A stretch of 64,000 nucleotides of DNA, from NCBI RefSeq assembly GCF_900113015.1, contig NZ_FONV01000001.1, positions 620,001 through 684,000 of the forward strand. Reading direction: 5' to 3'. The notes below the pieces were generated by a model. That model saw only the letters and a list, made by a program, of their open reading frames with translations. It did not search any database and was not told the origin of the DNA. This document shows positions 20,978 through 48,991 of the stretch, piece after piece. The translations under genes were made by a program, and so were the position numbers. The stretch is from Actinoplanes philippinensis. GTDB lineage: Bacteria > Actinomycetota > Actinomycetes > Mycobacteriales > Micromonosporaceae. Every line of letters begins with the position of its first letter. Position 1 is the stretch's first letter.

Positions 20978-23900
20978 ATGCCATACAGATTACGCAGAGT
21001 CAGCCGACGGCACCGGCGCCCTCTGCTCGCCGCTCTCGTCGCCGTGACGGTCGTCGCGGCCTCGCTGGTCGGCGGCTCGACACCCGCCGCGGCGAACACC
21101 TGCGGCGAGAACCCGATCGTCTGCGAGAACGCTTTGGACGGCAACCCGTCCGCCGAGTGGGAGATCGACGGCGCCGGCGACCCGACGCTGCAGGGCTTCG
21201 CCACCGACATCAGCGTCAACGCGGGCCAGCGGATCGACTTCAAGATCAAGTCTGAGGGCTCCTCCTACTCGATCAAGGTGTACCGCCTCGGCTGGTACGA
21301 CGGCGACGGCGCCCGGTTCATCACCGAGGTCGACCCGACCACGTTCGCGCCGCAACCGCCGAACTGCATCACCGACGACGACCTCCAGCTGCTCGACTGC
21401 GGCAACTGGCACGTGTCGGCGCACTGGAACGTCCCGACCACGCAGGTGTCCGGTGTCTACATCGCCCGGCTCAAGCGCACCGACATCGCCACCACCGAGG
21501 CCAGCCACATCACCTTCGTGGTACGCAACGACAGCAGCCACTCGGACCTGTACTTCAAGACGTCCGACGCGACCTGGCAGGCGTACAACCTGTACGGCGG
21601 CGCCGACTTCTACCAGGCGCCGGTCAACGGCCGCGCCCTGAAGCTCAGCTACAACCGGCCGTTCGCGACCCGCGGCTCCGACTACGGCCGCGACTTCCTG
21701 TTCAGCAACGAGTACCCGATGCTGCGGTTCCTGGAACGCAACGGGTACGACATGAGCTACACCACCGACGTCGACACCGACCGGCACGGCGAGCTGATCA
21801 AGAACCACAAGACGTTCCTCTCCGTCGGGCACGACGAGTACTGGTCGGGCGCCCAGCGCGCCAACGTCGAGGCCGCCCGTGACGCCGGCGTGAACCTGGC
21901 GTTCTTCAGCGGCAACGAGGTCTACTGGCGGACCCGCTGGGAGACCAGCAAGGACGGCTCGGGCACGCCGTACCGGACGCTGGTCTGCTACAAGGAGACC
22001 TGGGGCAAGGACAAGATCGACGACACCTCCCCGGAGTGGACCGGCACCTGGCGTGACCCGCGGTTCGCCACTCAGGAGCAGGGCGCCGGCCTGCCGGAGA
22101 ACGCGCTGACCGGCACGCTCTACATGGCCAACTACACCGACCTGGCACTGCAGGTCCCGGCCGCCCAGGGCAAGCTGCGGCTGTGGCGCAACACCGGGCT
22201 GGAGGACCTGGCCGGCAACACCACGGCCACCCTGGCGCCGCACACCATCGGTTACGAGTCGGACGAGGACCTGGACAACGGCTTCCGGCCGGCGGGCCTG
22301 ATCCGGCTCTCCACCACGACCGGACCGACCCCGGAGTACCTGCAGGACTTCGGCAACGTCACGCTGGCCGGCACCACCACGCACCACCTGACGATGTACA
22401 AGGCCGCCAGCGGCGCCCTGGTCTTCGGCGCGGGCACCGTGCAGTGGGCCTGGGGCCTGGACCAGAAGCACGACGGCGTGGACCCGCAGCCCGCCGACGA
22501 GCGGATGCAGCAGGCGACCGTCAACCTGCTCGCCGACATGGACGTCCAGCCGGCGACCCGGATGAGCACCCTGGACGCGGCCACCAAGTCCACCGACACG
22601 CAGGCGCCGACCGTGACCGTCACGAGCCCGGCCAACAACACGAAGGTGGCCAACGGCTCGCAGGTCACCCTGCAGGGCACCGCCACCGACGCCGGCGGCG
22701 GCAAGGTCGCGGGCGTCGAGGTCTCCACCGACTCGGGCTCCACCTGGCACCCGGCCGACGGGACCACGTCCTGGTCGTACAGCTTCTACACGAGCGGCGC
22801 CGGGCTGCAGGCGGTCCGGGTGCGCGGCATCGACGACAGCGCCAACATCCAGGAGCCGTCGACGGTCGTGAACCTGAAGCTGACCGGCCCCACCACGATC
22901 TTCGGCAACAAGACGCCGGAGAACGCGGCGGTCGACGACACGGCCGCGATCGAGCCGGGCATCCGGTTCAAGGCCACCGACGACGGCTACATCACCGGCA
23001 TCCGGTTCTACAAGGGCGCCGGCAACACCGGCTCGCACACCGGCAGCCTCTGGTCGGCCGACGGCGACCGGCTCGCCACCGGCACCTTCGCCAACGAGTC
23101 GAGCGCGGGCTGGCAGAAGCTGACCTTCGCGGACCCCGAGCCGATCCAGAAGAACAAGGTGTACGTGGCGTCGTACACCGCCCCCAACGGGCACTACGCG
23201 GCCGACGGCTCGGCGTTCAGCCTGACCGGGGTGGACTCGTCGCCGCTGAACGTGCCGAAGTCGACGCTCACGCAGGGCAACGGCGTGTTCGCGTACAACG
23301 CGGGTTTCCCGACCCACTCGTACAACGACACCAATTACTACGTGGACGTCATGTTCATCTCCAGCGACAAGGGCGCGCCGTCGCCGGTGTCGCTGTCGCC
23401 CGTGGCGAACGCCACCGTCGTCCCGCTCAGCGCGGAGCCGTCGGTGAAGTTCAGCCGGGCGCTCGACCACGACTCGATCGAGTTCGGGCTGAAGACGGCC
23501 GCGGGCGTCGCGGTGCCGGGCGGGTTCTCCTACGACGCCGACGAGCGGCGGGTCACGTTCTCGCCGAGCGTCCCGCTGGAGGCCTCCACCAAGTACACCG
23601 CGACGGTGCTGGCCAGCGACACCGGAGGCACGCCGAGCGACGAGCCGACGGTGTGGTCGTTCACCACGGACGCCACCGCGCAGATCGACACGCTGTTCGC
23701 CGACGACGCCACCCCGCAGGTGGCGGCCGACAGCGACAACAGCGCGATCGAGCTGGGCGTGAAGTTCGTCCCCACCAAGAACGGCAAGGTCGTCGGGGTG
23801 CGCTTCTGGCAGGGACCGGGCAACGGCGGCACGCACACCGGCACCCTGTGGTCACCGACCGGCGGCATCATGGCGCGCGCCACGTTCTCCGGGGAGAGCG

Positions 23901-24676
23901 GGTCCGGGTGGCAGAGCGTCCGGTTCGACTCGGCGGTCACGGTGACCGCCGGGACGACGTACACGGTGTCGTACTTCGCGCCCAACGGCCACTACTCGGC
24001 CACACCGGGGTTCTTCAACTCGCTGTGGACCCGGGGGCCGCTGACCACACCGGCGACGACCGCCAACGGCGTCTACCGGTACGGGACGAACGGCTACCCG
24101 ACCAACTCGTACGGCTCGACCAACTACTGGGTGGACGCGCTGTTCGTGGCGAACGCCGGTGCGGACCCGGACCCCGATCCGGACCCGACCACACCGCCGG
24201 ACGGCAGCACGGTCGGGATCTTCGCGGCCGACGCCACGCCGGACCACGCCAACTGGGACGACAACGACTCCATCACGGTGGGTGTCAAGTTCACCGCGGA
24301 CGTCGCCGGCAAGGTGACCGGGATGCGGTTCTACAAGGGCCCGCAGAACACCGGCATCCACACCGGCACGCTCTACAACAGCGCGGGGTCACCCATCGCC
24401 AGCGCGCCGTTCACCAGCGAGACGGCGTCCGGCTGGCAGAGCGTGACGTTCAGCCCGGCGATCGACGTCACCCCGGGTGAGACGTACACGGTGGCCTACT
24501 GGTCCTCCGCGGGCCGGTACGCGGTGAACCTCAACCAGTTCGCCTCGCAGGGCCTCGACGCGCCGCCGCTGCACGTCGAGACCCGCGGCGGGGTGTACCG
24601 GCCGGGCGACGGGTTCCCGCAGACCGCGACGAACCACAACTTCTGGGTGGACGTGAAGTTCAAGCCGAACAGCTGA
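20978..24676 (+). CDS. Giant secreted protein 1: N,N-dimethylformamidase-like domain, Ig-like domains, three DUF4082 modules
   Basis: About 1232 residues with a signal peptide (to about 38, ending PAAA). Residues 40-540 resemble the large (beta) subunit region of N,N-dimethylformamidase, with SVGHDEYWS and FFSGNEVYWRTRWE as clear landmarks. An Ig-like domain (545-640) follows, then DUF4082 module 1 (642-795), a Big_5-type Ig domain (800-905), DUF4082 module 2 (905-1058), an Asp-Pro linker (DPDPDPDP) and module 3 (1078-1232). Paralogues lie at 41360 and 44555. ATG 20978 gives the best leader; ATG 20927 or GTG 20951 are possible. The activity is unknown; a carbohydrate-directed surface role is inferred from context. 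A strong terminator follows. Confidence 0.8.
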   Translation: MPYRLRRVSRRHRRPLLAALVAVTVVAASLVGGSTPAAANTCGENPIVCENALDGNPSAEWEIDGAGDPTLQGFATDISVNAGQRIDFKIKSEGSSYSIKVYRLGWYDGDGARFITEVDPTTFAPQPPNCITDDDLQLLDCGNWHVSAHWNVPTTQVSGVYIARLKRTDIATTEASHITFVVRNDSSHSDLYFKTSDATWQAYNLYGGADFYQAPVNGRALKLSYNRPFATRGSDYGRDFLFSNEYPMLRFLERNGYDMSYTTDVDTDRHGELIKNHKTFLSVGHDEYWSGAQRANVEAARDAGVNLAFFSGNEVYWRTRWETSKDGSGTPYRTLVCYKETWGKDKIDDTSPEWTGTWRDPRFATQEQGAGLPENALTGTLYMANYTDLALQVPAAQGKLRLWRNTGLEDLAGNTTATLAPHTIGYESDEDLDNGFRPAGLIRLSTTTGPTPEYLQDFGNVTLAGTTTHHLTMYKAASGALVFGAGTVQWAWGLDQKHDGVDPQPADERMQQATVNLLADMDVQPATRMSTLDAATKSTDTQAPTVTVTSPANNTKVANGSQVTLQGTATDAGGGKVAGVEVSTDSGSTWHPADGTTSWSYSFYTSGAGLQAVRVRGIDDSANIQEPSTVVNLKLTGPTTIFGNKTPENAAVDDTAAIEPGIRFKATDDGYITGIRFYKGAGNTGSHTGSLWSADGDRLATGTFANESSAGWQKLTFADPEPIQKNKVYVASYTAPNGHYAADGSAFSLTGVDSSPLNVPKSTLTQGNGVFAYNAGFPTHSYNDTNYYVDVMFISSDKGAPSPVSLSPVANATVVPLSAEPSVKFSRALDHDSIEFGLKTAAGVAVPGGFSYDADERRVTFSPSVPLEASTKYTATVLASDTGGTPSDEPTVWSFTTDATAQIDTLFADDATPQVAADSDNSAIELGVKFVPTKNGKVVGVRFWQGPGNGGTHTGTLWSPTGGIMARATFSGESGSGWQSVRFDSAVTVTAGTTYTVSYFAPNGHYSATPGFFNSLWTRGPLTTPATTANGVYRYGTNGYPTNSYGSTNYWVDALFVANAGADPDPDPDPTTPPDGSTVGIFAADATPDHANWDDNDSITVGVKFTADVAGKVTGMRFYKGPQNTGIHTGTLYNSAGSPIASAPFTSETASGWQSVTFSPAIDVTPGETYTVAYWSSAGRYAVNLNQFASQGLDAPPLHVETRGGVYRPGDGFPQTATNHNFWVDVKFKPNS
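22903..24676 (+). repeat. Three DUF4082 modules in giant protein 1
   Basis: Three related coding repeats of roughly 460 bases at about 22903-23363, 23686-24153 and 24211-24676. Each runs from an (A/E)xGVKF strand through GxRF(Y/W)(K/Q)GPxNxGxHxGTLW and SGWQ to a closing NYWVDxxF-like strand. The first two are separated by an Ig-like domain, the last two by an Asp-Pro linker. Confidence 0.75.
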
Positions 24677-24687
24677 CCGGCTGACAC

Positions 24688-24725
24688 GAGAGAAGGCCCT
24701 CACCTTGCGGTGAGGGCCTTCTCTC
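24688..24725. terminator. Strong bidirectional terminator
   Basis: Perfect 17-bp stem, GAGAGAAGGCCCTCACC (24688-24704) with its complement at 24709-24725, loop TTGC. It lies between the convergent giant-1 gene and the acyl-carrier-protein gene. On the plus strand the 3' arm is T-rich (CCTTCTCTCG). Confidence 0.9.
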
Positions 24726-24737
24726 GTTGCCGGTGGC

Positions 24738-24995: not shown

Positions 24996-25015
24996 CTACT
25001 TACCTCCGGGGAGTG

Positions 25016-26227
25016 TCACAGGAGCACCTCGGCGGGCGCCGGGTGGCTCAGGAAAGCGGTGGGGCTGGCGGTCAGACCGTACGCCCCGGCCTGGTAAAGG
25101 ACGACCAGGTCCCCCACACCGGCCTCGGGCAGGGTCACGTTGTCGCCCAGCAGGTCGAGCGGGGTGCAGAGACAGCCGACCACGGTGACCTGTTCGGCCG
25201 GCTCCCGGTCGATCCGGTTGGCGACCGCGATCGGGTAGTTGCGGCGGATCACCTGTCCGAAGTTGCCGGACGCGGCGAGCTGGTGGTGCAGGCCGCCGTC
25301 GACGACCAGGTACGTCTTGCCGCGCGACTCCTTGCGGTCGACGACACGGGTCACATACACCCCGGCCTCGCCGACCAGGAACCGGCCCAGCTCGGTCACC
25401 ACCCGCGTCTCCGGCAGACGGGGCCGCACCTCGTCGCGCATCAGCGTGGCGAGGTTCTCGCCGATCACCTCGAGATCAAGAGCAACGTCCTTCTCGGTGT
25501 ACGGGATACCGAACCCGCCACCGAGGTTGAGGTACCGCACGGGCGCCACCGCGTCCTCGGCGAGCCGCAGCAGCAGCTCGACGGTGCGCCGTTGCGCCTC
25601 GGCGATGATGTCCGCCTTCAGGTTCTGCGAGCCGGCGAAGCAGTGGAAGCCGAGCACGTCGAGGTCGGTGCTCGCCAACTCCTTGAGCAGCGCGGGAACC
25701 CGTTCCGCGTCGACCCCGAACTGCTGCGGGCCGCCGCCCATCCGCATGCCCGAGCCCTTGACCGAGAAGTCCGGGTTGACGCGCACCGCGACCCGCGGCC
25801 GGATGCTCAGCTCGGAGCCGATCCGGGCGACCCGGGCCGCCTCGTTCTCCGACTCCAGCTCGATCGTCACCCCGGCCGCGACCGCCTGCCGCAACTCCGC
25901 GTCGGTCTTGCCGGGCCCGGCGAAGCTGATCCGGTTCGACGGCATCGTGGTGTCCAGCGCGACGCCCATCTCGATCGACGAGGCGACGTCGAACGAGTCG
26001 ACCAGGCCGCTCATGTGCTGCACGACGGCCGGCATCGGGTTCGCCTTGATCGCGTAGCTGAGCTGAAGATCCGCCGGCAGGTGGCGGCGCAGCAGGGCGA
26101 CCCGCTCGGTGAGCAGCCGCCGGTCGTAGGCGAAGAACGGGGTGCTGCCGACCCGGGCGGCGAGGCGGGACACCGGCACCCCGCCGACCGCCAGCTCGCC
26201 GTCGATCTCCTCGAAACCCCGGGTCAC
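25016..26227 (-). CDS. PLP-dependent decarboxylase, exosortase-A-associated type (Orn/DAP/Arg decarboxylase family 2)
   Basis: A 403-residue alanine-racemase-fold decarboxylase. Lys61 in SYAIKANPMPAV is the PLP lysine; SFAGPGKTDAEL, GSGMRMGGGPQQFGVD, CFAGSQN and LGGGFGIPY follow the order seen in diaminopimelate-decarboxylase relatives, closest in style to the exosortase-A-system-associated subgroup (TIGR03099). The catalytic cysteine region is GCLCTPLD. The GTG start shares four bases with the ligase stop. It probably decarboxylates an amino acid, perhaps one destined for the adjacent carrier protein; the substrate is inference. The gap to the carrier-protein gene is 20 bases. Confidence 0.85.
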   Translation of the reverse strand: MTRGFEEIDGELAVGGVPVSRLAARVGSTPFFAYDRRLLTERVALLRRHLPADLQLSYAIKANPMPAVVQHMSGLVDSFDVASSIEMGVALDTTMPSNRISFAGPGKTDAELRQAVAAGVTIELESENEAARVARIGSELSIRPRVAVRVNPDFSVKGSGMRMGGGPQQFGVDAERVPALLKELASTDLDVLGFHCFAGSQNLKADIIAEAQRRTVELLLRLAEDAVAPVRYLNLGGGFGIPYTEKDVALDLEVIGENLATLMRDEVRPRLPETRVVTELGRFLVGEAGVYVTRVVDRKESRGKTYLVVDGGLHHQLAASGNFGQVIRRNYPIAVANRIDREPAEQVTVVGCLCTPLDLLGDNVTLPEAGVGDLVVLYQAGAYGLTASPTAFLSHPAPAEVLL

Positions 26228-27777
26228 GCGCCCAACTCCTGACGTAGCAGATTGCGGTCGAACTTGCCGTTGGGCGAGCGGGGCAGCTCCGGGCGGACCA
26301 GCACGTCCTTGGGCAGCATGTAGAGCGGGACCTCCCGCTTGAACGCGGCCCTGACCGCGTCGACGTCGAACTCGCCCTCGCCGGCCGGGCTGACGATCAG
26401 CACGATCCGCTGGCCCAGCTTCGGGTCCGGCACGCCCAGCGCGACAGCGTCCCGGACCAGGCCGGTGGCGTACGCGACCTCCTCGATCTCGGTCGGGCTC
26501 ACCCGGTACCCGGAGGTCTTGATCATCTCGTCGGTGCGGCCCACGAAGTAGAGGAAGCCCTCCTCGTCACGGACCACCGAGTCGCCGGAGAAGACCGCCA
26601 GCTCCGGGTTGAGCGCGCCCTCGGCGCCGGGCAGCGGCTTGAACCGCTCGGCGGTACGGGCCGGGTCGTTCCAGTAGCCCAGAGCCACCAGGGCGCCCCG
26701 GTGCACCAGCTCGCCCTCCTCGCCCGGGTCGCAGACACTGCCGTCCGGCCGGAGCACCAGGATCTCCGCGTTCGGGATGGCCTTGCCGATCGAGTCGGGA
26801 CGCCGGTCCACCTCGGACGGGTCGAGGTAGGTGGAGCGGAAGGCCTCGGTCAACCCGTACATCAGGAAGGGCCTGGCCTCGGGGAAGATCGACCGCAACC
26901 GGTCCAGGGTGGTCTTGGGCATGCGCCCGCCGGTGTTGGCGAAGTAGCGCAGCCGGCGCCCGGTCTCCTCCGGCCACGTCTGGTCGGCGATCTGCAGCCA
27001 CAGCGGCGGCACGCAGGTCAGACCGGTGACGCCGTGCTTCGTGCAGAGCCGGACCACGTCGCGCGGCAGCAGGTAGTTGACCAGCACGACGTGCGCGCCG
27101 ACCGCGAACGACGTGGTGAGCTGGCTGAACCCGGCGTCGAAGCTGAGCGGCAGGGCGGCCAGCACGACGTCGTCCGCGGTCATCTCCAGGTACGAGCTGA
27201 CGCTCTCCGCCCCGGCCAGCATGTTGCGGTGCGAGAGCACCACGCCCTTCGGCTTGCCGGTGCTGCCCGAGGTGTAGAGGATCGCCGCCATGTCGACGTC
27301 GATCGCCGGGCTCTCCGGCAGGTCGCCACCGCCGAGCAGGTCGTCCCAGGCGGTCACCGGGAGCCGGCCGCCGGCCTCTCCGCCGCCGACCAGGATGATC
27401 CGCTCGAGCGACTTGACCTGCTCCAGCTCCTCGCCCAGGGCCTCCAGCCGCTCGGCCGTGGTGACCAGCACACGCACGTCGCAGTCGGCGAGGATGTAGG
27501 CCACCTGCCGGGCCCGCAGCACCGGGTTGACCGGGACGAACACGCCGCCCGCGGCCGACGTGGCGAAGATCGCGGTGACCGTCTCGACCCGCTTGTCGAG
27601 ATAGACCGCGACCCGCTCGCCGCGCGCGAGGCCCAGCTCCCGCAGCCCGGCGCCGGCGGACCGCACGTCGCGCCAGAGGTCGGCGTAGGACAGGGTGTCG
27701 TCGCGGTACGTCACAGCCGGGGCGTCGCCGGACCGGCCGGCGGCGCCGGCCAGCAGGTCGTGCAATCGGATGCGCAT
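26224..27777 (-). CDS. AMP-forming acyl-CoA/acyl-ACP ligase, exosortase-A-associated type
   Basis: A 517-residue ANL-superfamily adenylating enzyme. The P-loop YTSGSTGKPKG lies near residues 165-175, the A5 region is YGLTEAF, the A7 region SGDSVVRDEEGFLYFVGR, and the A10 lysine is in SPNGKFDRNLL. The N terminus (RIRLHDLLAGAA, RGERVAVYLDKRVE, VFVPVNPVLRARQV) resembles the exosortase-A-associated ligase family (TIGR03098). It activates a carboxylic acid as an adenylate and probably loads the downstream carrier protein. ATG 27777 gives the family N terminus; ATG 27795 in frame is possible. It is 47 bases after the GNAT gene and coupled to the decarboxylase. Confidence 0.87.
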   Translation of the reverse strand: MRIRLHDLLAGAAGRSGDAPAVTYRDDTLSYADLWRDVRSAGAGLRELGLARGERVAVYLDKRVETVTAIFATSAAGGVFVPVNPVLRARQVAYILADCDVRVLVTTAERLEALGEELEQVKSLERIILVGGGEAGGRLPVTAWDDLLGGGDLPESPAIDVDMAAILYTSGSTGKPKGVVLSHRNMLAGAESVSSYLEMTADDVVLAALPLSFDAGFSQLTTSFAVGAHVVLVNYLLPRDVVRLCTKHGVTGLTCVPPLWLQIADQTWPEETGRRLRYFANTGGRMPKTTLDRLRSIFPEARPFLMYGLTEAFRSTYLDPSEVDRRPDSIGKAIPNAEILVLRPDGSVCDPGEEGELVHRGALVALGYWNDPARTAERFKPLPGAEGALNPELAVFSGDSVVRDEEGFLYFVGRTDEMIKTSGYRVSPTEIEEVAYATGLVRDAVALGVPDPKLGQRIVLIVSPAGEGEFDVDAVRAAFKREVPLYMLPKDVLVRPELPRSPNGKFDRNLLRQELGA

Positions 27778-27824
27778 CTGTCGGGTTTCCCCCATCGGTG
27801 TGTCGGTGGTACGCCGGGCTGCCG

Positions 27825-29073: not shown

Positions 29074-30192
29074 ATGAAGCACCGCCGCAGCCTGTTCACC
29101 GGGACCCGATTGCGCCGGGCCGTCACCGTTAGCGCGGCGTTCGGCATGGTAATTCTGATTGCCGTCGGATTCACCTGGTATTCGACCGGACGCGACGACG
29201 CCACGCCGGAGAACGCGGCGCAGGCCGACACCACGCTGCCCGCGCCGGACGGGCAGCTCCCGTCCGTCCGGTCGATCCCGCCCTCCGCGGCCACCGCCTC
29301 CGCGCCGGTCTCGGCGTCCGCGTCTGCCCCTCCGTCGAAGAAGCCGGAGAACGGGGCGACCACGAAGGCCGTGTCGAAGGGCGGCTGCGCCCTCCCGGCG
29401 TACCCCACCGCGTCCTGCACCGGCGTCCCGGCCGGCTGGTTGCCGCAGAAGACGGTCCAGGGCGACCTGACCGTCACCAAGGCCGGCACGGTCGTCTCGG
29501 ACCAGCTCGTCACCGGCAGCATCCTGGTGCGGGCCGCGGACGTGACGATCCGCCGCACCCGGGTCTACGGCACCATCGACAACTTCATCGGCGACAAGAT
29601 CTACGGGCACCTCACCATCGAGGACACCGAGGTCGTGCCGAAACCGGGCGAGGGCATCTCCAGCGTCCAGCAGTACGCGTTCGGCGTCGCCAACTACACG
29701 TGCCGCCGCTGCAAGGTGATGAACCGCATGGAGGGCTGGCGGGTCGGCGCGGGCAGCTTCGCCGGCGCCGGGCAGGTCGTCATCGAGGACTCGTATGCGC
29801 AGCTCGCCGTGCCGGCCGGCATGTGCGCGTCGTCCGACCCGCACGGGGACGGCATCCAGGGCTACGGCGGCCCCACCGCGACGATCCGGCACAACACGAT
29901 CGACCAGCGCGGCGACGACTGCCCGACCTCGCCGATCTTCATCCCGGACCAGGACAACGCGGGCGGCACGGTCACCGACAACGTGCTGGCCGGCGGCGGC
30001 TACGCGCTGCGCCTGTCCGGTGGCTCGTTCCCCACGGTGACCGGCAACAAGATCGTCACCAAGAGCGCGGAGTACGGGCCGATCGACGTCGACTGCTCGA
30101 AGATCGGCACCTGGTCGGGCAACGCGGAGGTCACCTTCGACTTCGACCGCGGTGTGGTCCTCAAGGAGACCAAGAAGCTCAACAATTGCTGA
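29074..30192 (+). CDS. Membrane-anchored right-handed beta-helix protein
   Basis: A 372-residue protein with a basic N terminus and a single hydrophobic helix (AVTVSAAFGMVILIAVGFTW, about residues 15-34) that anchors it or serves as a signal. A Ser/Ala/Pro-rich linker (about 40-100) follows, then a parallel beta-helix domain of short repeats (VRAADVTIRRTRVYGTI, YGHLTIEDTEVVP, PTATIRHNTIDQRG, GGTVTDNVLAGG). Cysteine pairs (CRRCKV, GCALPAYPTASC) suggest an extracellular disulphide-bonded domain. The family includes polysaccharide lyases and epimerases, but no active site is identifiable. Monocistronic: its own promoter lies upstream and a strong terminator downstream. Confidence 0.75.
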   Translation: MKHRRSLFTGTRLRRAVTVSAAFGMVILIAVGFTWYSTGRDDATPENAAQADTTLPAPDGQLPSVRSIPPSAATASAPVSASASAPPSKKPENGATTKAVSKGGCALPAYPTASCTGVPAGWLPQKTVQGDLTVTKAGTVVSDQLVTGSILVRAADVTIRRTRVYGTIDNFIGDKIYGHLTIEDTEVVPKPGEGISSVQQYAFGVANYTCRRCKVMNRMEGWRVGAGSFAGAGQVVIEDSYAQLAVPAGMCASSDPHGDGIQGYGGPTATIRHNTIDQRGDDCPTSPIFIPDQDNAGGTVTDNVLAGGGYALRLSGGSFPTVTGNKIVTKSAEYGPIDVDCSKIGTWSGNAEVTFDFDRGVVLKETKKLNNC

Positions 30193-30205
30193 TCGGCACA
30201 CCACC

Positions 30206-30239: not shown

Positions 30240-30250
30240 TCAGGGATTCC

Positions 30251-33197: not shown

Positions 33198-33226
33198 CGA
33201 ACTTCCATCAGCCTTCCAAAGTCGTG

Positions 33227-34618: not shown

Positions 34619-34631
34619 ATCGGTCGAACTT

Positions 34632-39382: not shown

Positions 39383-39388
39383 GAAGTC

Positions 39389-40051
39389 ATGAGCGACGTC
39401 ATCAACATCTGCTTCCACGGCATCGGCACGCCGCAGCGTGAGATGGAGCCGGGCGAGGACCGTTACTGGATCAGCGTCGAGCTGTTCCACGCGGTGCTCG
39501 ACGAGATCCGCACCTGGCCGTCGGTCCGGGTCAGCTTCGACGACGGCAACTCCTCGGACCTGGAGATCGGCCTGCCGGCGCTGCTGGAGCGCGGGCTGAC
39601 CGGCGAGTTCTACGTGCTGGCGTCCCGGTTCGGCAAGCCGGGCAGCCTCAGCGAGGAGGACGTGCGGAAGCTGCACGGCGCGGGCATGACGATCGGCACA
39701 CACGGCATGTGGCACCGGCCCTGGCGCGGCATGGACGCCGCGACCAGCCGGGACGAGCTGGAGACGGCCCGCCGGCAGATCGAGGACGCGGTCGGCGTGC
39801 CGGTCGACCAGGCGGCCTGCCCGCTCGGCCGCTACGACCGGCGGCTGCTCAGCCGGATGCGCGCGCTCGGCTACCGGCGGGTCTTCACCAGCGACCGGCG
39901 CCGGGCCCGCGCGGAGGACTGGCTGCAGCCGCGCTACAGCCTGCGCCGCGAGGACACCGTGGACGGGCTGCGCGCCGAGGCCCTGGTCGGCCCCGGCGCG
40001 CTGACCCGCCTCAAGCTGGAGGCGGTCGGAGTCGTCAAGCGGCTCCGGTAG
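39389..40051 (+). CDS. Polysaccharide deacetylase (NodB homology)
   Basis: A 220-residue carbohydrate esterase 4-type domain without signal peptide. Metal and catalytic residues: D51-D52 in VSFDDGNSSD, and H105 and H109 in THGMWH, the standard D-H-H triad. Later motifs are CPLGRYDRRLL and a weakly conserved C terminus. CE4 enzymes remove N- or O-acetyl groups from sugars. With no export signal, it may act on a cytosolic lipid-linked or nucleotide-linked sugar. It follows the GT2 gene by six bases. It is convergent with the GT2 gene at 40057, five bases away, with no visible terminator. Confidence 0.87.
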   Translation: MSDVINICFHGIGTPQREMEPGEDRYWISVELFHAVLDEIRTWPSVRVSFDDGNSSDLEIGLPALLERGLTGEFYVLASRFGKPGSLSEEDVRKLHGAGMTIGTHGMWHRPWRGMDAATSRDELETARRQIEDAVGVPVDQAACPLGRYDRRLLSRMRALGYRRVFTSDRRRARAEDWLQPRYSLRREDTVDGLRAEALVGPGALTRLKLEAVGVVKRLR

Positions 40052-40056
40052 CTCCC

Positions 40057-41007
40057 CTACCGCCCGGCGGCACGGGCGGCGTCGCGCTGGACGGTGTCCG
40101 GTCCCGGCGTCTCCCGCAGCCGCGCCGGGCTGAGCAGGGCGCGGGCCGCGAGCTTGCTCGGGCCCTTGCCGAGCAGCGCCCGGCTGCCCTCGCGCACCAG
40201 CAGCGCGGCCCAGAACGCGGCCCCGAGCAGCGCGTTGTGCCGCCGCCGGTAGAGCCGCACCTTGTTCAGCGTCAGCAGCGTCCACAGCGCCGGCGACACC
40301 TTCGAGTCGCCCTCCAGGTGCACCGCCCTGGCGGCCGGGGTGAACCGGGTCGCCAGGCCGGCGTCACCGGCCCGCAACGCGAAGTCGGTCTCCTCCGAGT
40401 AGAGGAAGAAGGACTCGTCCCACGGCGCGATCCGGTTCCAGCAGTCGGCGCTGATCAGCACCGTCGAGCCCTCGGCCCAGTCGGCGACCCGCTCGGCGGT
40501 GTAGAGCCGCTCATCGGTCACCATCTCGCCGAACGCCGGGTAGCGGCCGGCCCGGACCGCGCCCATCAGCGCGTCCCCGATCACCCGCCGGACCGACGGC
40601 TCCCGGCGCATCGTGTGGATGAGCTCCCCGTCGCCGTCCTCCAGCAGCGGCACCGCGATGCCGGTGCCCTCGGTGCGCAGCACCCCGAGCAGGGTGCGCA
40701 CGCAGCCCGGTGTGAGCCGCACGTCCGGGTTGAGCACCAGGACCGCGGTGAACGGCCCGGCCTTCGCCACGGCCGCGTTGATGCCCGCGGCGTAACCCGC
40801 GTTGCGTCCCATCTCGACCACGGTGGCGTCCGGCGCGAGCCGCCGCACCGCGCCCACCGAGTCGTCCGCGGACGCGTTGTCCGCCACGATCAACTGCCAG
40901 TCGACGCCCTCCAGGCCCGGCCCGAGCGACGCGATCAGATCCGGGATCAATCGCTCGCTGTTGTACGTCACCGCGACGACCGCCACAGTTTCGGGCGTGC
41001 TGTCCAA
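40057..41007 (-). CDS. Family 2 glycosyltransferase (rhamnosyltransferase-like)
   Basis: A 316-residue GT-A transferase of the type annotated as rhamnosyltransferase: VAVVAVTYNSERLIPDLIASL, VADNASADDSV (about 40-50), GRNAGYAAGINAAV (about 67-80), LNPDVRLTPG for DxD (about 92-101) and DESFFLYSEETDFALRA (about 194-210). dTDP-rhamnose genes lie at 51062-54515 of this window, so a rhamnose donor is plausible. The start is TTG 41007, with GGGGAGG five bases upstream. Confidence 0.87.
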   Translation of the reverse strand: MDSTPETVAVVAVTYNSERLIPDLIASLGPGLEGVDWQLIVADNASADDSVGAVRRLAPDATVVEMGRNAGYAAGINAAVAKAGPFTAVLVLNPDVRLTPGCVRTLLGVLRTEGTGIAVPLLEDGDGELIHTMRREPSVRRVIGDALMGAVRAGRYPAFGEMVTDERLYTAERVADWAEGSTVLISADCWNRIAPWDESFFLYSEETDFALRAGDAGLATRFTPAARAVHLEGDSKVSPALWTLLTLNKVRLYRRRHNALLGAAFWAALLVREGSRALLGKGPSKLAARALLSPARLRETPGPDTVQRDAARAAGR

Positions 41008-41359: not shown

Positions 41360-44300
41360 TTGCGAGATCTCAGGCTCTTCCGGCAGCGGTCGCTGCTGGT
41401 TCTCACTCTGGTCGCGGCGGCGCTGTTCCTGCCGTCCGCCGGCCCGGCCAGCGCGGCCGACCCGTGCGCCCCGGTGGTCAATCCGATCGCCTGCGAGAAC
41501 ACCAGGACCGGCACACCGAAGACCACCTGGGACGTCAGCGGGTCGGGCAGCGCGGCGCTGCAGGGCTTCGCCACCGAGATGAGCGTCAACGTCGGCGAGA
41601 CGGTCAACTTCAAGATCGACTCCACGGCCACGTCGTACCGGCTGGACATCTACCGGATGGGCTACTACGGCGGCAACGGGGCGCGGTTCATCACCACGGT
41701 CAACCCGGTCGGGCGGCAGACCCAGCCGGCCTGCATCAGCGCGCCCACCACCGGGCTCGTCGACTGCGGCAACTGGGCGGTCTCCGCCTCGTGGCCGGTG
41801 CCGGCGACAGCGGTGTCCGGCATCTACTTCGCGCGCCTCGTGCGTACCGACGGCACCGCCGGCGCCAGCCACGTGATGTTCGTGGTCCGGGACGACGCGA
41901 GCCGCTCCGACCTGGTGTTCCAGACCTCCGACACGACGTGGCAGGCGTACAACACGTACGGCGGCAACAGCTTCTACGTCGGGTCGCCGGCCGGCCGCGC
42001 GTACAAGATCTCCTACAACCGGCCGATCACCACCCGCGGCACCGGGCCCGAGGACTTCGTCTTCAACGCCGAATACCCGATGGTCCGGTTCCTGGAGGCC
42101 AACGGGTACGACGTCAGCTACATCTCCGGCATCGACACCGACCGGCGCGGGTCCCTGCTGCGCAACCACAAGTCGTTCCTGTCGGTCGGGCACGACGAGT
42201 ACTGGTCCGGGCAGCAGCGCGCCAACATCGAGTCGGCCCGCGACGCCGGCCTGCACCTGGCGTTCTTCAGCGGCAACGAGGTGTTCTGGAAGACCCGCTG
42301 GGAGACCAGCGTGGACGGATCGGGCACCCCGTACCGGACCCTGGTCTGCTACAAGGAGACCCACGCCAACGCGGCCATCGACCCGAGCACCGAATGGACC
42401 GGCACCTGGCGCGACGCGCGGTTCAGCCCGCCGAAGAACGGCGGCCGGCCGGAGAACGGCCTGACCGGCACCTCCTTCGAGGTCAACTCGGGCACCGTCA
42501 ACCTGCAGGTCCCGGCGGCCGACGGCAAGATGCGGCTGTGGCGCGGCACCACCGTCGCGAGCCAGGCGTCCAATGCCACCGCCACCCTCGGCACCGGCAC
42601 ACTGGGGTACGAGTGGGACGAGGACCTGGTCAACGCGGCCCGCCCGCAGGGGCTGATCCGGCTCTCCACCACCACCGCGAGCGGCGTCGAGATCCTCACC
42701 GACAACGGCTCCACCTACGCCTCCGGCACCGCCACCCACAACCTCACCCTGTACCGGACGGCGAGCGGCGCGCTGGTCTTCGGCGCCGGCACCGTGCAGT
42801 GGTCGTGGGGCCTGGACAGCAATCACGACCGGGGCTCCGGCGCCGCCAGCACCCCGATGAAGCAGGCCACCGTCAACCTGTTCGCCGACATGGGCGCCCA
42901 GCCGGCCACCCTCCAGTCCGGCCTGACCGCGGCGACCGCCTCCACCGACACCGTCGCGCCGACCGCGGTGATCACCGCGCCCGCCGCGGGCGCCACCGTC
43001 TCGGCCGGCACCCGGGTCACCGTCTCCGGCACCGCCACCGACACCGGCGGCGTGGTCGGCGGCGTCGAGGTCTCCACCGACGGCGGAGCCACCTGGAAGC
43101 CGGCCGGCGGACGGGGCACGTGGACGTACTCGTTCACCACCCCGAACGCGCCGGGCGCCGTCGACATCCGGGCCCGCGCGATCGACGACAGCGGCCGGAT
43201 CGGCGCGGCCGTCAGCCGGTCGATCACTGTCGGCCAGCAGACCTGCCCGTGCAGCCTGTGGACCGTCGACGACGTGCCCGCCACCCCCAGCGACCCGGAC
43301 AGCACCGGCACCGAGGTCGGCGTGAAGTTCCGCGCCGACGTGGCCGGCAAGGTCACCGCACTGCGCTTCTACAAGGGCTCCGGCAACACCGGCACCCACG
43401 TCGGCAAGCTCTGGAACGCGGCCGGCACCCAGCTGGCCTCGGTCACCTTCACCGGGGAGAGCGGCACCGGCTGGCAGACCGCCACGTTCGCCACCCCGGT
43501 GTCGCTGACCGCCGGCGCCACCTACGTCGCCTCCTACTACGCGCCGAACGGCCACTACGCCGGGGACGTCGGCTACTTCGCGGCGAACGGCGTGGACAGC
43601 GGCCCGCTGCACGCGCTGCGCGACGGGGTCGACGGCGCCAACGGCGTCTACCGGTTCGGCGCCGGTTTCCCGACCACGTCCTGGGAGTCCGCCAACTACT
43701 GGGTCGACGTCGTCTTCACCACCGACGCGACCGGGCCGGACACCACCGCGCCGACCGTCACCACCCGCTCCCCCGCCGCCGGGGCGACCGGGGTGGCCGC
43801 CGCGAGCACCGTGTCGGCGACGTTCAGCGAGGCCGTCTCGGCGGCGGAGGTCAGCGTGAGCGGCCCGTCCGGCGCGGTGGCCGGCAGCACGAGCGCCGGC
43901 ACGAACACCGTCACGTTCACCCCGTCGGCCGCGCTGGCCGCGTCCACCACGTACACGGCCACCGTCAGCGGGGCGCGCGACGCCGCCGGCAACACGATGA
44001 CCAGCACATCCTGGACGTTCACCACCGCCGCCGCGACGACCGGGCCGAACTGCCCGTGCTCGGTGTGGCCCGCTTCGGCGACACCCGCATCCCCCGCCGA
44101 CAGCGAGACCGCCGCCGTGGAGCTCGGCATGAAGTTCCGCTCCGACGTCGCCGGCCGGATCACCGGGATCCGGTTCTACAAGGGCAGCGGCAACAGCGGC
44201 ACCCACGTCGGGCGGCTCTGGTCGTCGGCCGGGACCCTGCTGGGCAGCGTGACCTTCAGCGGCGAGACCGCGACCGGCTGGCAGCAGGCGACGCTGGCCA

Positions 44301-44545
44301 CCCCGGTCACGATCAGCGCCGGCGCCACGTACGTCGTGTCATACCACGCGCCGAACGGCCGCTACGCCTTCAACGGCGGGTTCTTCGCATCCTCCGGCGT
44401 CGACAACGGCCCGCTGCACGCGCTGCGTGACGGCGTGGACGGGGTCAACGGCGTCTACCGATACGGAACCGGCGGCGTCTTCCCCACCGACAGCTGGCAG
44501 TCGAGCAACTACTGGGTGGACGTCGTGTTCACCCCGGCGAGCTAG
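41360..44545 (+). CDS. Giant secreted protein 2: N,N-dimethylformamidase-like domain, Ig-like domains, two DUF4082 modules
   Basis: A 1061-residue paralogue of the protein at 20978. Signal peptide to about residue 33 (PASA-A). Residues 34-525 are dimethylformamidase-like with the same landmarks (SVGHDEYWS, FFSGNEVFWKTRWE, GALVFGAGTVQWSWGLD). An Ig-like domain (530-625), DUF4082 module 1 (631-790), a Big_5-type Ig domain (795-890) and DUF4082 module 2 (897-1060) follow; both modules begin with a CPCS motif that giant 1 lacks. The start is TTG, eight bases after GGGGAGG. It is followed after nine bases by giant 3, so both probably share one transcript. Activity unknown. Confidence 0.8.
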   Translation: MRDLRLFRQRSLLVLTLVAAALFLPSAGPASAADPCAPVVNPIACENTRTGTPKTTWDVSGSGSAALQGFATEMSVNVGETVNFKIDSTATSYRLDIYRMGYYGGNGARFITTVNPVGRQTQPACISAPTTGLVDCGNWAVSASWPVPATAVSGIYFARLVRTDGTAGASHVMFVVRDDASRSDLVFQTSDTTWQAYNTYGGNSFYVGSPAGRAYKISYNRPITTRGTGPEDFVFNAEYPMVRFLEANGYDVSYISGIDTDRRGSLLRNHKSFLSVGHDEYWSGQQRANIESARDAGLHLAFFSGNEVFWKTRWETSVDGSGTPYRTLVCYKETHANAAIDPSTEWTGTWRDARFSPPKNGGRPENGLTGTSFEVNSGTVNLQVPAADGKMRLWRGTTVASQASNATATLGTGTLGYEWDEDLVNAARPQGLIRLSTTTASGVEILTDNGSTYASGTATHNLTLYRTASGALVFGAGTVQWSWGLDSNHDRGSGAASTPMKQATVNLFADMGAQPATLQSGLTAATASTDTVAPTAVITAPAAGATVSAGTRVTVSGTATDTGGVVGGVEVSTDGGATWKPAGGRGTWTYSFTTPNAPGAVDIRARAIDDSGRIGAAVSRSITVGQQTCPCSLWTVDDVPATPSDPDSTGTEVGVKFRADVAGKVTALRFYKGSGNTGTHVGKLWNAAGTQLASVTFTGESGTGWQTATFATPVSLTAGATYVASYYAPNGHYAGDVGYFAANGVDSGPLHALRDGVDGANGVYRFGAGFPTTSWESANYWVDVVFTTDATGPDTTAPTVTTRSPAAGATGVAAASTVSATFSEAVSAAEVSVSGPSGAVAGSTSAGTNTVTFTPSAALAASTTYTATVSGARDAAGNTMTSTSWTFTTAAATTGPNCPCSVWPASATPASPADSETAAVELGMKFRSDVAGRITGIRFYKGSGNSGTHVGRLWSSAGTLLGSVTFSGETATGWQQATLATPVTISAGATYVVSYHAPNGRYAFNGGFFASSGVDNGPLHALRDGVDGVNGVYRYGTGGVFPTDSWQSSNYWVDVVFTPAS

Positions 44546-45935
44546 GAGCGCGTCTTGACCCTACCGAAACTCCGGTCGTTCCTGTTGTGCCTGGTGCTGG
44601 CGGCGACCGTGCTCATCGTCGCGCCCGCGGCTCCGGCCGCGGCCGCGACCTGTCCGTGCACCATCTTCAGCGCGTCGTCGGTGCCGGCCAGCCCGTCCGA
44701 CTCCGACACCAGCGCGGTAGAGGTCGGCGTCAAGTTCCGGTCCGACGTCGCCGGGCAGATCACCGGTGTCCGGTTCTACAAGGGCGCGGCGAACACCGGC
44801 ACCCACGTCGGCAACCTGTGGAACTCGGCCGGCGGCAACCTGGGCACCGTCACGTTCACCAACGAGACCGCGTCCGGCTGGCAGACCGCCACGTTCGCCA
44901 GCCCGATCACGATCAGCGCCGGCACCACGTACGTCGCGTCCTACTACGCGCCGAACGGCCGCTACGCCGGGGACAGCGGCGCGCTGCTGTCGGCCGGCGT
45001 GGACAACGCGCCACTGCACGCGCTGCGCAGCGGTGAGGACGGCGGCAACGGCGTCTACCGGTACGGCACCGGCGGCGGCTTCCCCGACAGCACCTGGCAG
45101 GGCGCCAACTACTGGGTCGACGTGGTGTTCACCTCCGGCGTCACCGACACCACGCCGCCGACCGTGACCAGCACCAGCCCCGCCGCCGGCGCGACCGGGG
45201 TGGCCACCACGGCGGCGGTCAGCGCCGTGTTCAGCGAGGCGGTGCAGACCGGCACCCCGGCCCTCACCGTCGCCGGGGTCACCGGCACGACCGCCTACAA
45301 CGCCGCCACCCGGACGGTGACGTTCACGCCCGGGGCGCTCGCCGCGTCCACGAGCTACACCGCCACCGTCTCCGGCGCCCGCGACACCGCGGGCAACCTG
45401 ATGAGCCCGCTGTCCTGGTCGTTCACCACGGGCGCCGGCGGCGGATCCGGCTGCCCCTGCTCGATCTGGCCGGCCACGGCCACCCCGGCCACCGGCACGG
45501 TCAACGACAACTCGGCGGTCGAGCTGGGCGTCAAGTTCCGCACCACGACGGCCGGCTACATCACCGGGCTCAAGTTCTACAAGGGCAGCCAGAACACCGG
45601 CACGCACACCGGCTCGCTCTGGTCGAGCGCCGGCACCCGGCTGGCGAACGTGACCTTCACCGGCGAGTCCGGCTCCGGCTGGCAGACCGTCACGCTCCCC
45701 GGGCCGGTCCCGGTCACCGCGAACACCACCTACGTTGCGTCGTACCACACCGACACCGGCTTCTACTCGGTGACGGCCGGCGGCTTCTCCTCGGCGGTCA
45801 CCCGTTCTCCGCTGACCGCCCTGGCCAACGGCACGGACGGCGGCAACGGCGTCTACCGGTACGGCGCGAGCGGCTTCCCCACCAGCAGCTACCAGTCCAC
45901 CAACTACTGGGTCGACGTCGTCTTCGACACCACCG
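43240..45935 (+). repeat. Four DUF4082 modules spanning two adjacent genes
   Basis: Four coding repeats of roughly 480 bases at about 43240-43722, 44041-44545, 44640-45135 and 45445-45935. The second (end of giant 2) and third (start of giant 3) are very similar at DNA level even though they lie in different genes; for example a 23-base stretch is identical at 44346-44368 and 44947-44969. Each begins with CPC(S/T) and ends with NYWVDVVF. The pattern suggests duplication and unequal exchange. Confidence 0.8.
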
Positions 45936-48900
45936 CGGCGGACACCCAGGCGCCGTCCCTGGCCGGCCGCGCCCCGGCCGCCGGAGCCTCCGGGGTGGCC
46001 ACCACGACCGCTGTGACAGCGGCGTTCACCGAGCAGGTCACCGCGGCCTCGATCGTGCTGACCGGCCCGTCCGGGACCGTGGCCGGCTCCACCACCTACG
46101 ACGCGACCACCGCCACGGCGGTCCTCACCCCGTCCACGGCGCTCGCCAACTCCACCTCGTACACCGCCACGGTGAGCGGGGCCCGGGACGCCGCGGGCAA
46201 CGTGATGACGCCGGTGACCTGGTCGTTCACCACGTCGGCGCCACCTCCGCCGCCACCGGACCAGGGCCCGGGCGGCCCCGTCCTGGTGATCAAGTCGGCG
46301 GTCTCCGGCGCCAGCGGGTTCACGTCGTTCGCCGCCGAGGTGCTGCGCGCCGAAGGCCTCAACGAGTTCGCCACCGTCGACCTGTCCGCGGTCACCCCGG
46401 CGCTGCTCGCCCAGTACGACGTGGTCCTGCTCGGCTCCACGCCGCTCACCGCGGCCCAGGTCAGCACGTTCACCACCTGGGTCACCGGCGGCGGCAACCT
46501 GATCGCCTTCCGGCCGGACAAGCAGCTCGCGAGCCTGCTCGGCCTGACCGCCACCACCGGCACCCTGGCCGAGGGCTACCTGCGGGTCGACACCACGACC
46601 GCGCCGGGCGCCGGCATCACCGGGCAGACCATCCAGTACCACAGCACCGCCGACCGCTACACGCTCTCCGGCGCCCGTTCGGTGGCCACGCTCTACTCCA
46701 CCGGCACGACGGCCACCGTCAACCCGGCGGTGTCGCTGGCCGACGTCGGCTCATCCGGCGGGCAGGCCGCGGCGTTCACCTTCGACCTGCCGCGGTCGCT
46801 GGTCTACACCCGTCAGGGCAACCCGGCGTGGGAGAAGCAGGACCGGGACGGCCGCGCGCCGATCCGCTCCGACGACCTGTACTTCGGCGGCGCCGCCACC
46901 GACTGGGTCGACCTCACCAAGGTCGCCGTGCCACAGGCCGACGAGCAGCAGCGCCTGCTCGCCAACCTGATCGGGACGATGAACGCCGACCGCAAGCCGC
47001 TGCCCCGGTTCTGGTACTTCCCGCGCAGCCTCAAGGCGGTCGTCGTCGCCACCGGTGACGACCACGCCACCGGCGGCACCGCGGGACGCTTCGACCAGTA
47101 CCTCGCCAACAGCCCGGCCGGGTGTGTGGTCGACGACTGGCAGTGCCCGCGGTTCACCTCGTACATCTTCCCGGACACGCCGCTCACCAACAGCCAGGCC
47201 ACCACGTACCAGAACCGCGGTTTCGAGGTCGGGCTGCACCTCAACACCGGATGCGCCAACTGGACGGCGGCGTCGCTCGCGGCCAACCTCACCGACCAGC
47301 TCGCGGCGTTCCGCGCCAAGTACGGCTCGGTGCGCGCCCCGGACACCAACCGCACCCACTGCATCGTCTGGTCCGACTGGTCCACGCAGGCCAGCCTGCA
47401 GAACGCCAACGGGATCCGGCTCGACACCAACTACTACTACTGGCCGGAGACCTGGGTCGCCGACCGGCCGGGCTTCATGACCGGCTCCGGCATGCCGATG
47501 CGGTTCGCCGACACCAACGGCGGGCTCATCGACATCTACCAGGCCGCCACCCAGATGACCGACGAGTCGGGACAGAGCTACCCGTACACCCCGGACGCTC
47601 TACTCGACGCGGCCCTCGGCACGCCGGGCTACTACGGGGCGTTCACCGCCAACATGCACACCGACTACGCGACCACCTACGACAGCGACCAGGTGCTGGC
47701 GTCGGCGCAGCGCCACAACGTGCCGCTGATCAGCGGCCACCAGCTGCTCACCTGGCTGGACGGGCGCAACGCGTCGTCGTACTCGAACATCGCCTGGACC
47801 GGGAACGACCTGACGTTCGCGGTCAACGTCGGCACCGGCGCCAACGGCCTCACCGGCATGGTGCCCACCGCCGGACCGGGCGGGCGGACACTGTCCACCC
47901 TGACCCGGGCCGGAGTCGCGGTCCCGTTCACCCGGACCACGATCAAGGGCGTCGAGTACGCGTTCTTCACCGCCGCGCCCGGTGCGTACACGGCCGGTTA
48001 CGCCGCCGCGGCCACCGCGACGCTCACCGCTTCGGCCGCGGCCGAGGCCGGCGGGACCAGCGCATCGGTCACGGTCGCGACCAGCACGGCGACGAAAACC
48101 ATCATCGAGTACGGGCTCCGCGCGACCGAACTCACGCAAAAGGCAGTCGACGGCTCGCAGACCGGCAAACGCACCGTCACCCTGTCCGGACTCGAGCCCG
48201 CCACCACCTACTGGTACCGGGCGAAGGTGACCACCCCGGACGGCCGGACCACCACCGGCCCGCTGCAGAAGGTCACCACCGGCGCCCGCGACCGCACCGG
48301 CCCGGCCACGTCCGGGGTCACCGTCACCGCCCGCCCGGACGGCACCGCCCAGGTGCAGTGGAAGTCCAGCGAACCCGCCGACGCCACCCTGCTCGTCGGC
48401 GCCTCGGCGAAGTCGCTGGCCAAGTGGCCCGGAACCCGCGACGCGACCCGGCTCAGCGCCGTGGTGACGGGTCTGGAGCCGCGCACCACGTACCACTACC
48501 GGGTCCGCAGCGTCGACGCGGCAGGCAACGTCTCCACCTGGCCGGCGCTGGACAAGCCGGCGGCGACGTTCGTGTCGTCCGCCACCGGTGTCGCCGACCA
48601 CACCGCCCCGCAGCAGCGGACCGGTGTCGAGTCCGGAGTCACCGTCGGCGACGACGGGGTGCGGCTCGCCGGGTCCGCCCGCAGCGGCACCCTGGTGTCC
48701 CGGGTGATGGACGCCCAGCAGATGGTCCGCTGGGACCGGCTCACCTATCAGGGCAGAGTGCCTGCGGGGGCGACCCTCACGGTGTACGTGCGCACCGGCA
48801 GCACCGCGGTACCGGACGGCACCTGGAGCGGGTGGACCGCCGTCGGCCAGAACGGCAAGGTGCCCGGCGGATCCCGATACATCCAGTACCGGGCCGAACT

Positions 48901-48991
48901 GACCCGCACCGCCGCCGGCGACAGCCCCGTCCTGCGGGGCGTGGGCATCACCTCCGACGGCCGTTCCCTGCACCACCCGACCGAGAAGTAA
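44555..48991 (+). CDS. Giant secreted protein 3: DUF4082 modules, ThuA-like and polysaccharide-deacetylase-like region, FnIII domains
   Basis: A 1478-residue secreted protein. Signal peptide to about 30; DUF4082 module 1 (31-192); Big_5 Ig domain (196-290); module 2 (295-455); a second Big_5 Ig (460-560); a Pro-rich linker; a Rossmann/ThuA-like segment (577-695, VVLLGSTPLTAAQV, WVTGGGNLIAF); a deacetylase-like region (about 800-1130) with VVVATGDDHATGG (834) and VGLHLNTG (892); two fibronectin III domains (1152-1342); and a C-terminal beta-rich domain. Unlike giants 1 and 2 it has no dimethylformamidase region. The second NodB histidine motif is atypical (single HLNTG), so catalysis is uncertain. 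TTG start after GGAG. Confidence 0.78.
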   Translation: MTLPKLRSFLLCLVLAATVLIVAPAAPAAAATCPCTIFSASSVPASPSDSDTSAVEVGVKFRSDVAGQITGVRFYKGAANTGTHVGNLWNSAGGNLGTVTFTNETASGWQTATFASPITISAGTTYVASYYAPNGRYAGDSGALLSAGVDNAPLHALRSGEDGGNGVYRYGTGGGFPDSTWQGANYWVDVVFTSGVTDTTPPTVTSTSPAAGATGVATTAAVSAVFSEAVQTGTPALTVAGVTGTTAYNAATRTVTFTPGALAASTSYTATVSGARDTAGNLMSPLSWSFTTGAGGGSGCPCSIWPATATPATGTVNDNSAVELGVKFRTTTAGYITGLKFYKGSQNTGTHTGSLWSSAGTRLANVTFTGESGSGWQTVTLPGPVPVTANTTYVASYHTDTGFYSVTAGGFSSAVTRSPLTALANGTDGGNGVYRYGASGFPTSSYQSTNYWVDVVFDTTAADTQAPSLAGRAPAAGASGVATTTAVTAAFTEQVTAASIVLTGPSGTVAGSTTYDATTATAVLTPSTALANSTSYTATVSGARDAAGNVMTPVTWSFTTSAPPPPPPDQGPGGPVLVIKSAVSGASGFTSFAAEVLRAEGLNEFATVDLSAVTPALLAQYDVVLLGSTPLTAAQVSTFTTWVTGGGNLIAFRPDKQLASLLGLTATTGTLAEGYLRVDTTTAPGAGITGQTIQYHSTADRYTLSGARSVATLYSTGTTATVNPAVSLADVGSSGGQAAAFTFDLPRSLVYTRQGNPAWEKQDRDGRAPIRSDDLYFGGAATDWVDLTKVAVPQADEQQRLLANLIGTMNADRKPLPRFWYFPRSLKAVVVATGDDHATGGTAGRFDQYLANSPAGCVVDDWQCPRFTSYIFPDTPLTNSQATTYQNRGFEVGLHLNTGCANWTAASLAANLTDQLAAFRAKYGSVRAPDTNRTHCIVWSDWSTQASLQNANGIRLDTNYYYWPETWVADRPGFMTGSGMPMRFADTNGGLIDIYQAATQMTDESGQSYPYTPDALLDAALGTPGYYGAFTANMHTDYATTYDSDQVLASAQRHNVPLISGHQLLTWLDGRNASSYSNIAWTGNDLTFAVNVGTGANGLTGMVPTAGPGGRTLSTLTRAGVAVPFTRTTIKGVEYAFFTAAPGAYTAGYAAAATATLTASAAAEAGGTSASVTVATSTATKTIIEYGLRATELTQKAVDGSQTGKRTVTLSGLEPATTYWYRAKVTTPDGRTTTGPLQKVTTGARDRTGPATSGVTVTARPDGTAQVQWKSSEPADATLLVGASAKSLAKWPGTRDATRLSAVVTGLEPRTTYHYRVRSVDAAGNVSTWPALDKPAATFVSSATGVADHTAPQQRTGVESGVTVGDDGVRLAGSARSGTLVSRVMDAQQMVRWDRLTYQGRVPAGATLTVYVRTGSTAVPDGTWSGWTAVGQNGKVPGGSRYIQYRAELTRTAAGDSPVLRGVGITSDGRSLHHPTEK

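Follow-up and report, generated by a model that had tools for sequence, protein, structure and literature searches.

The stretch of Actinoplanes philippinensis DNA considered here (contig NZ_FONV01000001.1, positions 620,001 to 684,000; 64,000 nucleotides, hereafter the window) contains an exopolysaccharide (EPS) locus that encodes three giant proteins with DUF4082 repeats. Giant 1 (G1, 1232 amino acids, 20978-24676), giant 2 (G2, 1061 amino acids, 41360-44545) and giant 3 (G3, 1478 amino acids, 44555-48991) all reside on the + strand, and 9 bases separate the end of the G2 gene from the start of the G3 gene. Translation of the open reading frames confirmed all three at these positions; an alternative upstream ATG at 20822 would lead to a 1284-residue G1. 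All three giants have signal-peptide-like N-termini and are predicted to be secreted, and no anchor was recognised in any of them. Frames, signal-like starts and locus genes agree with the initial annotation of the window, which had described secreted giants of these lengths within an EPS locus.

Pfam analysis of G1 detected a DMFA2_C domain (PF20254, E 4e-102; 21272-22471), the immunoglobulin (Ig)-like domains Big_7 and Big_5, and three DUF4082 copies (22910-23344, 23708-24133 and 24233-24649). G2 consists of the same elements, i.e., DMFA2_C (E 1.1e-107; 41642-42826), Big_7, Big_5 and two DUF4082 copies (43271-43705 and 44078-44518). This bears out the combination of dimethylformamidase (DMF)-like, Ig-like and DUF4082 modules proposed earlier for two of the giants. 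In G3, two DUF4082 copies (44678-45118 and 45479-45913), two Big_5 and two fibronectin III (fn3)-like domains were found, while no Pfam model matches its middle part (46235-47884). According to the predicted fold, that part comprises a ThuA/GATase-like domain followed by a deacetylase-like barrel, and together with the fn3-like matches this upholds the earlier view that the third giant swaps the DMF region for ThuA-like and deacetylase-like domains. The 10.4 Mb host genome contains seven DUF4082 and two DMFA2_C copies in total, all of them in these giants. Since several further Wzy_C matches occur elsewhere in the genome, the giants are tied to one particular EPS locus. Their nearest named relatives belong to Actinoplanes/Paractinoplanes.

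The association with EPS genes extends well beyond this genome. Homologues of wzy or wzz were present in 16 of 20 giant-centred 20 kb regions taken from the window's own family (two of these being adjacent stretches of one genome), compared with 0/20 regions around stand-alone DMFA2_C genes and 0/20 random regions (p 1.5e-7 versus controls); note that the window's own genes served as seeds for the search models, such that very divergent polymerases in the controls could escape them. A scan of species genomes yielded 80 named loci with domain identities of 61-90%, spanning Actinomycetota, Pseudomonadota, Acidobacteriota, Cyanobacteriota, Chloroflexota and others. At least three of five gene families that make up an amino-sugar nucleotide cassette (Gfo/Idh dehydrogenase, epimerase, two DegT aminotransferases and NeuD/PglD acetyltransferase) lie beside the giants in 33/80 of these loci from several phyla, as opposed to 0/40 controls from the window's own family. 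Homologues scattered without a link to EPS genes had been named beforehand as the pattern that would speak against the initial annotation, and this is not what these regions display. The link applies to most DUF4082 giants and fails for some relatives in Nocardioides and Arthrobacter that reside outside EPS loci. We thus state that DUF4082 giants are, with exceptions, specifically encoded in Wzy-type EPS loci.

The PF20254 model is covered at positions 2-372 of 374 in both G1 and G2. Single-sequence phmmer searches with the giants against the PDB returned Ig-like and chance matches only, and a profile of 19 domain sequences was required to reach solved relatives. The best match of this profile was N-acetyl-(R)-beta-phenylalanine acylase (8huy, E 7.5e-19); dimethylformamidase itself (6lvb) was found with E 1.1e-14. 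In dimethylformamidase, Tyr399, Tyr440 and Glu521 are the ligands of the ferric iron, the enzyme requires His519, and Asn547 is part of the active site (PMC7686228). When aligned with 6lvb, Tyr399 corresponds to the tyrosine of an AYN motif, Tyr440 to a later SLY/SFY tyrosine, His519 and Glu521 to the H and E of a GHDEYW motif that is also present in G1, and Asn547 to an asparagine 28 residues past that histidine, a spacing identical to that in dimethylformamidase. The equivalents in G2 are Y197, Y206, H278, E280 and N306, with Y197, Y206 and E280 as predicted iron ligands. All five positions are invariant across the 19 sequences, whose identity goes down to about 32%, and with 47 of the 379 columns being invariant, five prescribed residues would all fall into such columns by chance with a probability of about 2e-5. 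In a larger set comprising the domains of the named genomes plus the window's own, the equivalents of Y399, Y440, H519 and E521 were retained in 83/83 domains, G1 and G2 included, and that of N547 in 82/83. The same catalytic residues are kept in stand-alone DMF-type proteins. Given this near-invariance, the dimethylformamidase-type active site of G1 and G2 is very likely intact. The profile match to 6lvb with all catalytic residues kept also sustains the relationship to dimethylformamidase on which the earlier reading had been staked. The term small amide, used there for the known substrate, proved too narrow, because the relatives include 8huy, an acylase named for N-acetyl removal.

For the middle part of G3, a profile search of the PDB by sequence gave nothing convincing. 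An AlphaFold model built from a 28-sequence alignment reached a pLDDT of 87 and a pTM of 0.91, and its best Foldseek match in the PDB was the human heparan sulfate N-deacetylase NDST1 (E 2.4e-8), extending over 580 columns across both domains with a low overall TM (0.31). The next matches were GATase-like domains of glycoside hydrolases and several polysaccharide/chitin deacetylases; Agd3 was absent among the 50 Foldseek matches listed. The Asp-Asp pair D835/D836, which corresponds to motif CM1 of carbohydrate esterase (CE) family CE18, is invariant in all 28 G3-type sequences, as is H895, the first histidine of the CM2 motif HxxxH. R983 and H1035 are likewise invariant and follow the order of the CM3 arginine and the CM4 catalytic histidine of CE18, matched by position only. 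Our reading, based on the predicted fold, is that the G3 middle may work like deacetylases of the NDST/Agd3 type. A sulfotransferase domain was not found in G3 by Pfam.

A model of DUF4082 from a 58-sequence alignment is a beta-sandwich (pLDDT 96), as is predicted for the second copy in G2. A profile search of the PDB by sequence gave nothing convincing, and the fold matches, i.e., PHR domains, phage baseplate modules, the lectin-like domain of Cwp84 and CBM35, are weak. We infer that the repeats may bind glycans or the polymer. Across genomes, DUF4082 co-occurs with DMFA2_C (52/55 versus 43/146, p 4e-18).

DUF4082 and the DMF domain reside in the same frame in 76 of the 80 loci. One and the same protein carries a G3-type middle and the DMF domain in 17/80 loci; in 12 further ones, the middle is encoded by a separate nearby gene. 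Joint action of the two enzymatic halves is therefore probable. G2 plus G3 of the window are the counterpart of one fused protein in other bacteria. In the phylogenetic tree, G1 falls into a fully supported clade of giants from Micromonosporaceae and other actinobacteria that includes EPS-cassette-linked homologues, while G2 stands beside Nocardioides proteins, mostly fused forms. A recent duplication giving rise to G2 from G1 was rejected because these clades are separate and well supported; G1 and G2 are old paralogues. Stand-alone DMFA2_C genes (loci L148-L154 and L167; about 510-575 amino acids, lacking DUF4082) frequently have an acyl-CoA-ligase-like gene in their vicinity (8/20 regions, mostly from one genus). 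This neighbour suggests a small-molecule role for the stand-alone proteins, different from that of the giants. Clustering of unclassified neighbouring open reading frames yielded mostly antisense artefacts of high-GC DNA.

Upstream of G1, the window carries an amino-sugar nucleotide cassette (12208-17336, +) with genes for a Gfo/Idh dehydrogenase, an epimerase/dehydratase, a 4-aminotransferase-like DegT protein, a NeuD/PglD N-acetyltransferase and a 3-aminotransferase-like DegT protein. The dehydrogenase resembles UDP-GlcNAc 3-dehydrogenase with a score under the cut-off of that model. The label for the first DegT protein follows from its resemblance to ArnB and perosamine synthetase, which are 4-aminotransferases, and the second one resembles the DesV-type transaminase 2oga, WbpE and QdtB, which we take to be 3-aminotransferases. 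From this gene set, one would expect N-acylated amino sugars in the EPS, which N-acyl hydrolases could naturally use as substrate.

The hallmarks of a Wzx/Wzy-type locus are represented by a Wzy-type polymerase (33227-34618, -; PF04932, Wzy_C, E 3.9e-13) and an EPS priming glycosylphosphotransferase (49334-50830, -; TIGR03025 above cut-off); a Wzx flippase was not recognised in scans of the locus genes. A Wzz-like protein is encoded at 35912-36970 (-), assigned by reading the sequence without a Pfam match and conserved beside Wzy. Glycosyltransferases (GT) belong to GT2 (32100-33185, -, and 40057-41007, -), are GT4-like with a score under the Pfam cut-off (34632-35708, -) or are encoded as a GT4 and GT2 pair (37161-39382, +). 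The locus further comprises an ABC-2 permease and its ATPase (30251-32103, -), a polysaccharide deacetylase in which no signal peptide was seen (39389-40051, +; PF01522), and rml genes in the EPS context. Next to G1, there are genes for a pyridoxal phosphate (PLP)-dependent decarboxylase (25016-26227, -; TIGR03099) and an acyl-CoA ligase (26224-27780, -; TIGR03098), both of the exosortase-A-system type and above cut-off, which also recur beside giants in related genomes. An exosortase-A EPS system was rejected despite these genes, because no PF09721 match exists in the host genome. A secreted beta-helix protein (29074-30192, +) is a recurrent neighbour of giants, being encoded in 5/20 giant regions, and might cleave or modify the polymer. 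Outside the EPS genes, the window contains a gene for a pectate-lyase-like protein (PF12708) upstream of the locus (3247-4950, +), a histidine kinase that carries a NIT domain of the nitrate/nitrite-sensing kind (7442-9931, +) near a small GTP-binding protein (10687-11271), and, at 55333-63084, genes for a tripartite tricarboxylate transporter, a LysR regulator, an aldolase resembling dihydrodipicolinate synthase and two enzymes of the enolase superfamily, a group that probably serves sugar-acid catabolism and has no relation to the EPS genes.

Taken together, these findings lead us to propose, with a confidence that we would call even, that the giants are secreted tailoring enzymes that de-N-acylate amino sugars of the EPS while anchored to it by DUF4082. 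The polymer would first be made by Wzy polymerisation and then be bound by the giants via DUF4082. The putative ferric site of G1 and G2 and the putative metal site of G3 would both hydrolyse N-acyl groups of amino sugars, and the two enzyme types may differ in the acyl groups or positions that they act on, in line with the upstream genes for 3-amino- and 4-aminotransferases and the acetyltransferase. Freed amines would confer positive charge and adhesiveness on the matrix, as deacetylation does for poly-N-acetylglucosamine (PNAG), Pel and galactosaminogalactan. The computations show the domains, the conserved active site, the fusion and the EPS linkage, whereas iron binding, the removal of acyl groups from the EPS, polymer binding by DUF4082 and any consequences for charge and adhesion are predictions. 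Somewhat more tentative is the full form of this proposal, in which a polysaccharide de-N-acylase has arisen from the ferric amidohydrolase fold with its 2-Tyr-1-Glu ligands and operates in one secreted machine together with an NDST/Agd3-like deacetylase and glycan-binding DUF4082 repeats.

Several observations weigh against de-N-acylation of the EPS. The known dimethylformamidase is inactive without its small subunit, favours formamides and has no activity on acetamide (PMC7686228). A small subunit was not recognised among the locus genes, where no model of it was searched, and the 264-residue insertion that forms pentraxin domain II has no room in G1 and G2, in which the Ig-like part abuts the catalytic domain. 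An N-formyl sugar as substrate was not favoured because the locus contains no formyltransferase. In G3-type proteins, the position four residues after H895 varies between G, N, S, R, E and Q, i.e., one metal histidine of HxxxH is lost, and we therefore keep G3 out of CE18. The best TM of DUF4082 with any PDB entry is only about 0.5. Furthermore, in 23/80 loci, some of them cut by contig ends, no member of the EPS families under test was seen within 10 kb. A fused 2600-residue giant of Nocardioides (locus L056, 9620-17416) stands alone amid housekeeping genes without an EPS locus, and the Arthrobacter giant (L126) also resides amid housekeeping genes.

In principle, the giants could instead form a matrix scaffold, with DUF4082 and Ig-like repeats as EPS-binding structural or adhesive parts and the enzyme-like domains serving mainly as glycan-binding folds. 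Such a role is in line with long, repeat-rich, secreted proteins lacking a recognised anchor, with the weak likeness of the DUF4082 sandwich to lectin-like and carbohydrate-binding modules, and with the ThuA-like domain of Agd3, which is a module that binds the polymer (PMC7229062). We nevertheless consider a mere scaffold rather unlikely, because the DMF catalytic residues, needless for binding, are invariant across phyla and are the same in stand-alone DMF-type proteins. It is less probable still that G1 and G2 are amidases for N-acyl amino acids, peptide caps or small amides, serving scavenging or detoxification, and that the EPS only keeps them near the cell. While both characterised relatives (6lvb and 8huy) act on small amides and some giants lie outside EPS loci, the tie to wzy/wzz is limited to the DUF4082-bearing form and not seen for stand-alone forms, and the fusion to an NDST/CE-like domain points to a polysaccharide. 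Finally, the iron domain might transfer or cleave an acyl or aminoacyl substituent set by the PLP decarboxylase, the acyl-CoA ligase and GNAT-like genes, thereby affecting attachment of the polymer and not its charge. These genes adjoin G1 and recur in 4-5 of 20 giant regions; however, most giant loci of other phyla lack them and retain the sugar cassette, and we judge this explanation very improbable. Of the two options in the initial annotation, the best-supported reading is hence that the giants act on N-acyl groups of surface glycans, given the match to dimethylformamidase, the conserved residues and the wzy/wzz link. The activity itself is a prediction, and a purely structural role of the DUF4082/Ig-like parts is possible.

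An earlier description of such a giant EPS system was not found in the searched literature, nor was one of any action on sugars by this type of iron enzyme. DUF4082 appeared there in one paper, as a table entry, and the titles and listed abstract parts of the 13 papers that name dimethylformamidase revealed no EPS topic. The passages found on the imp, wps and gsf clusters of Actinoplanes missouriensis mention no such giants. In several biofilms, N-deacetylation of the matrix polysaccharide determines charge, adhesion and virulence, and the known matrix deacetylases fall into a small number of metal-dependent carbohydrate esterase families (CE4, CE18 and CE21). If our proposal is correct, EPS-modifying enzymes with a new type of chemistry exist across several bacterial phyla, a widespread, undescribed group of giant secreted proteins is explained along with a likely role for DUF4082, and a natural function is provided for a fold whose only known reactions are the breakdown of one solvent and of one N-acyl beta-amino acid. 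Actinoplanes EPS loci also matter for spore-bearing sporangia (PMC13390465, PMC12691653).

With regard to known systems, PgaB, IcaB and PelA (CE4/CE21) perform extracellular de-N-acetylation of biofilm polymers, the very function proposed for the giants, but the catalytic domain of G1 and G2 is of a different type, and we know of no iron-tyrosinate amidase among CE4/CE21 EPS deacetylases. DmfA2, the large subunit of dimethylformamidase (6LVB; PF20254), shares homology in domains I and III and the residues Y399, Y440, E521, H519 and N547, whereas G1 and G2 are secreted, lack pentraxin domain II, are fused to DUF4082/Ig-like repeats and occur in an EPS context. N-acetyl-(R)-beta-phenylalanine acylase (8HUY, 8I5A), the best-scoring solved relative, removes N-acetyl groups by name. 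The substrate given in its name is an N-acyl beta-amino acid, and its chain of 772-776 amino acids with an N-terminal part of its own leaves no room for DUF4082 repeats. G3 resembles NDST1 in the succession of a Rossmann-like N-terminal domain and a deacetylase barrel, and differs by the absence of the sulfotransferase domain and by the non-conserved second metal histidine. Agd3 (CE18 plus CBM87), an EPS deacetylase of Aspergillus, likewise combines a ThuA-like module with a deacetylase and is encoded in an EPS cluster; its Asp-Asp pair has a counterpart in G3, and, going by position, its catalytic-acid histidine and late arginine may have one too. Unlike G3, the three-domain Agd3 has no DMF or DUF4082 partner, while HxxxH of G3 is down to one histidine and no sequence match between the two proteins was found. 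The layout of a ThuA-like domain plus a deacetylase is common to NDST1 and Agd3.

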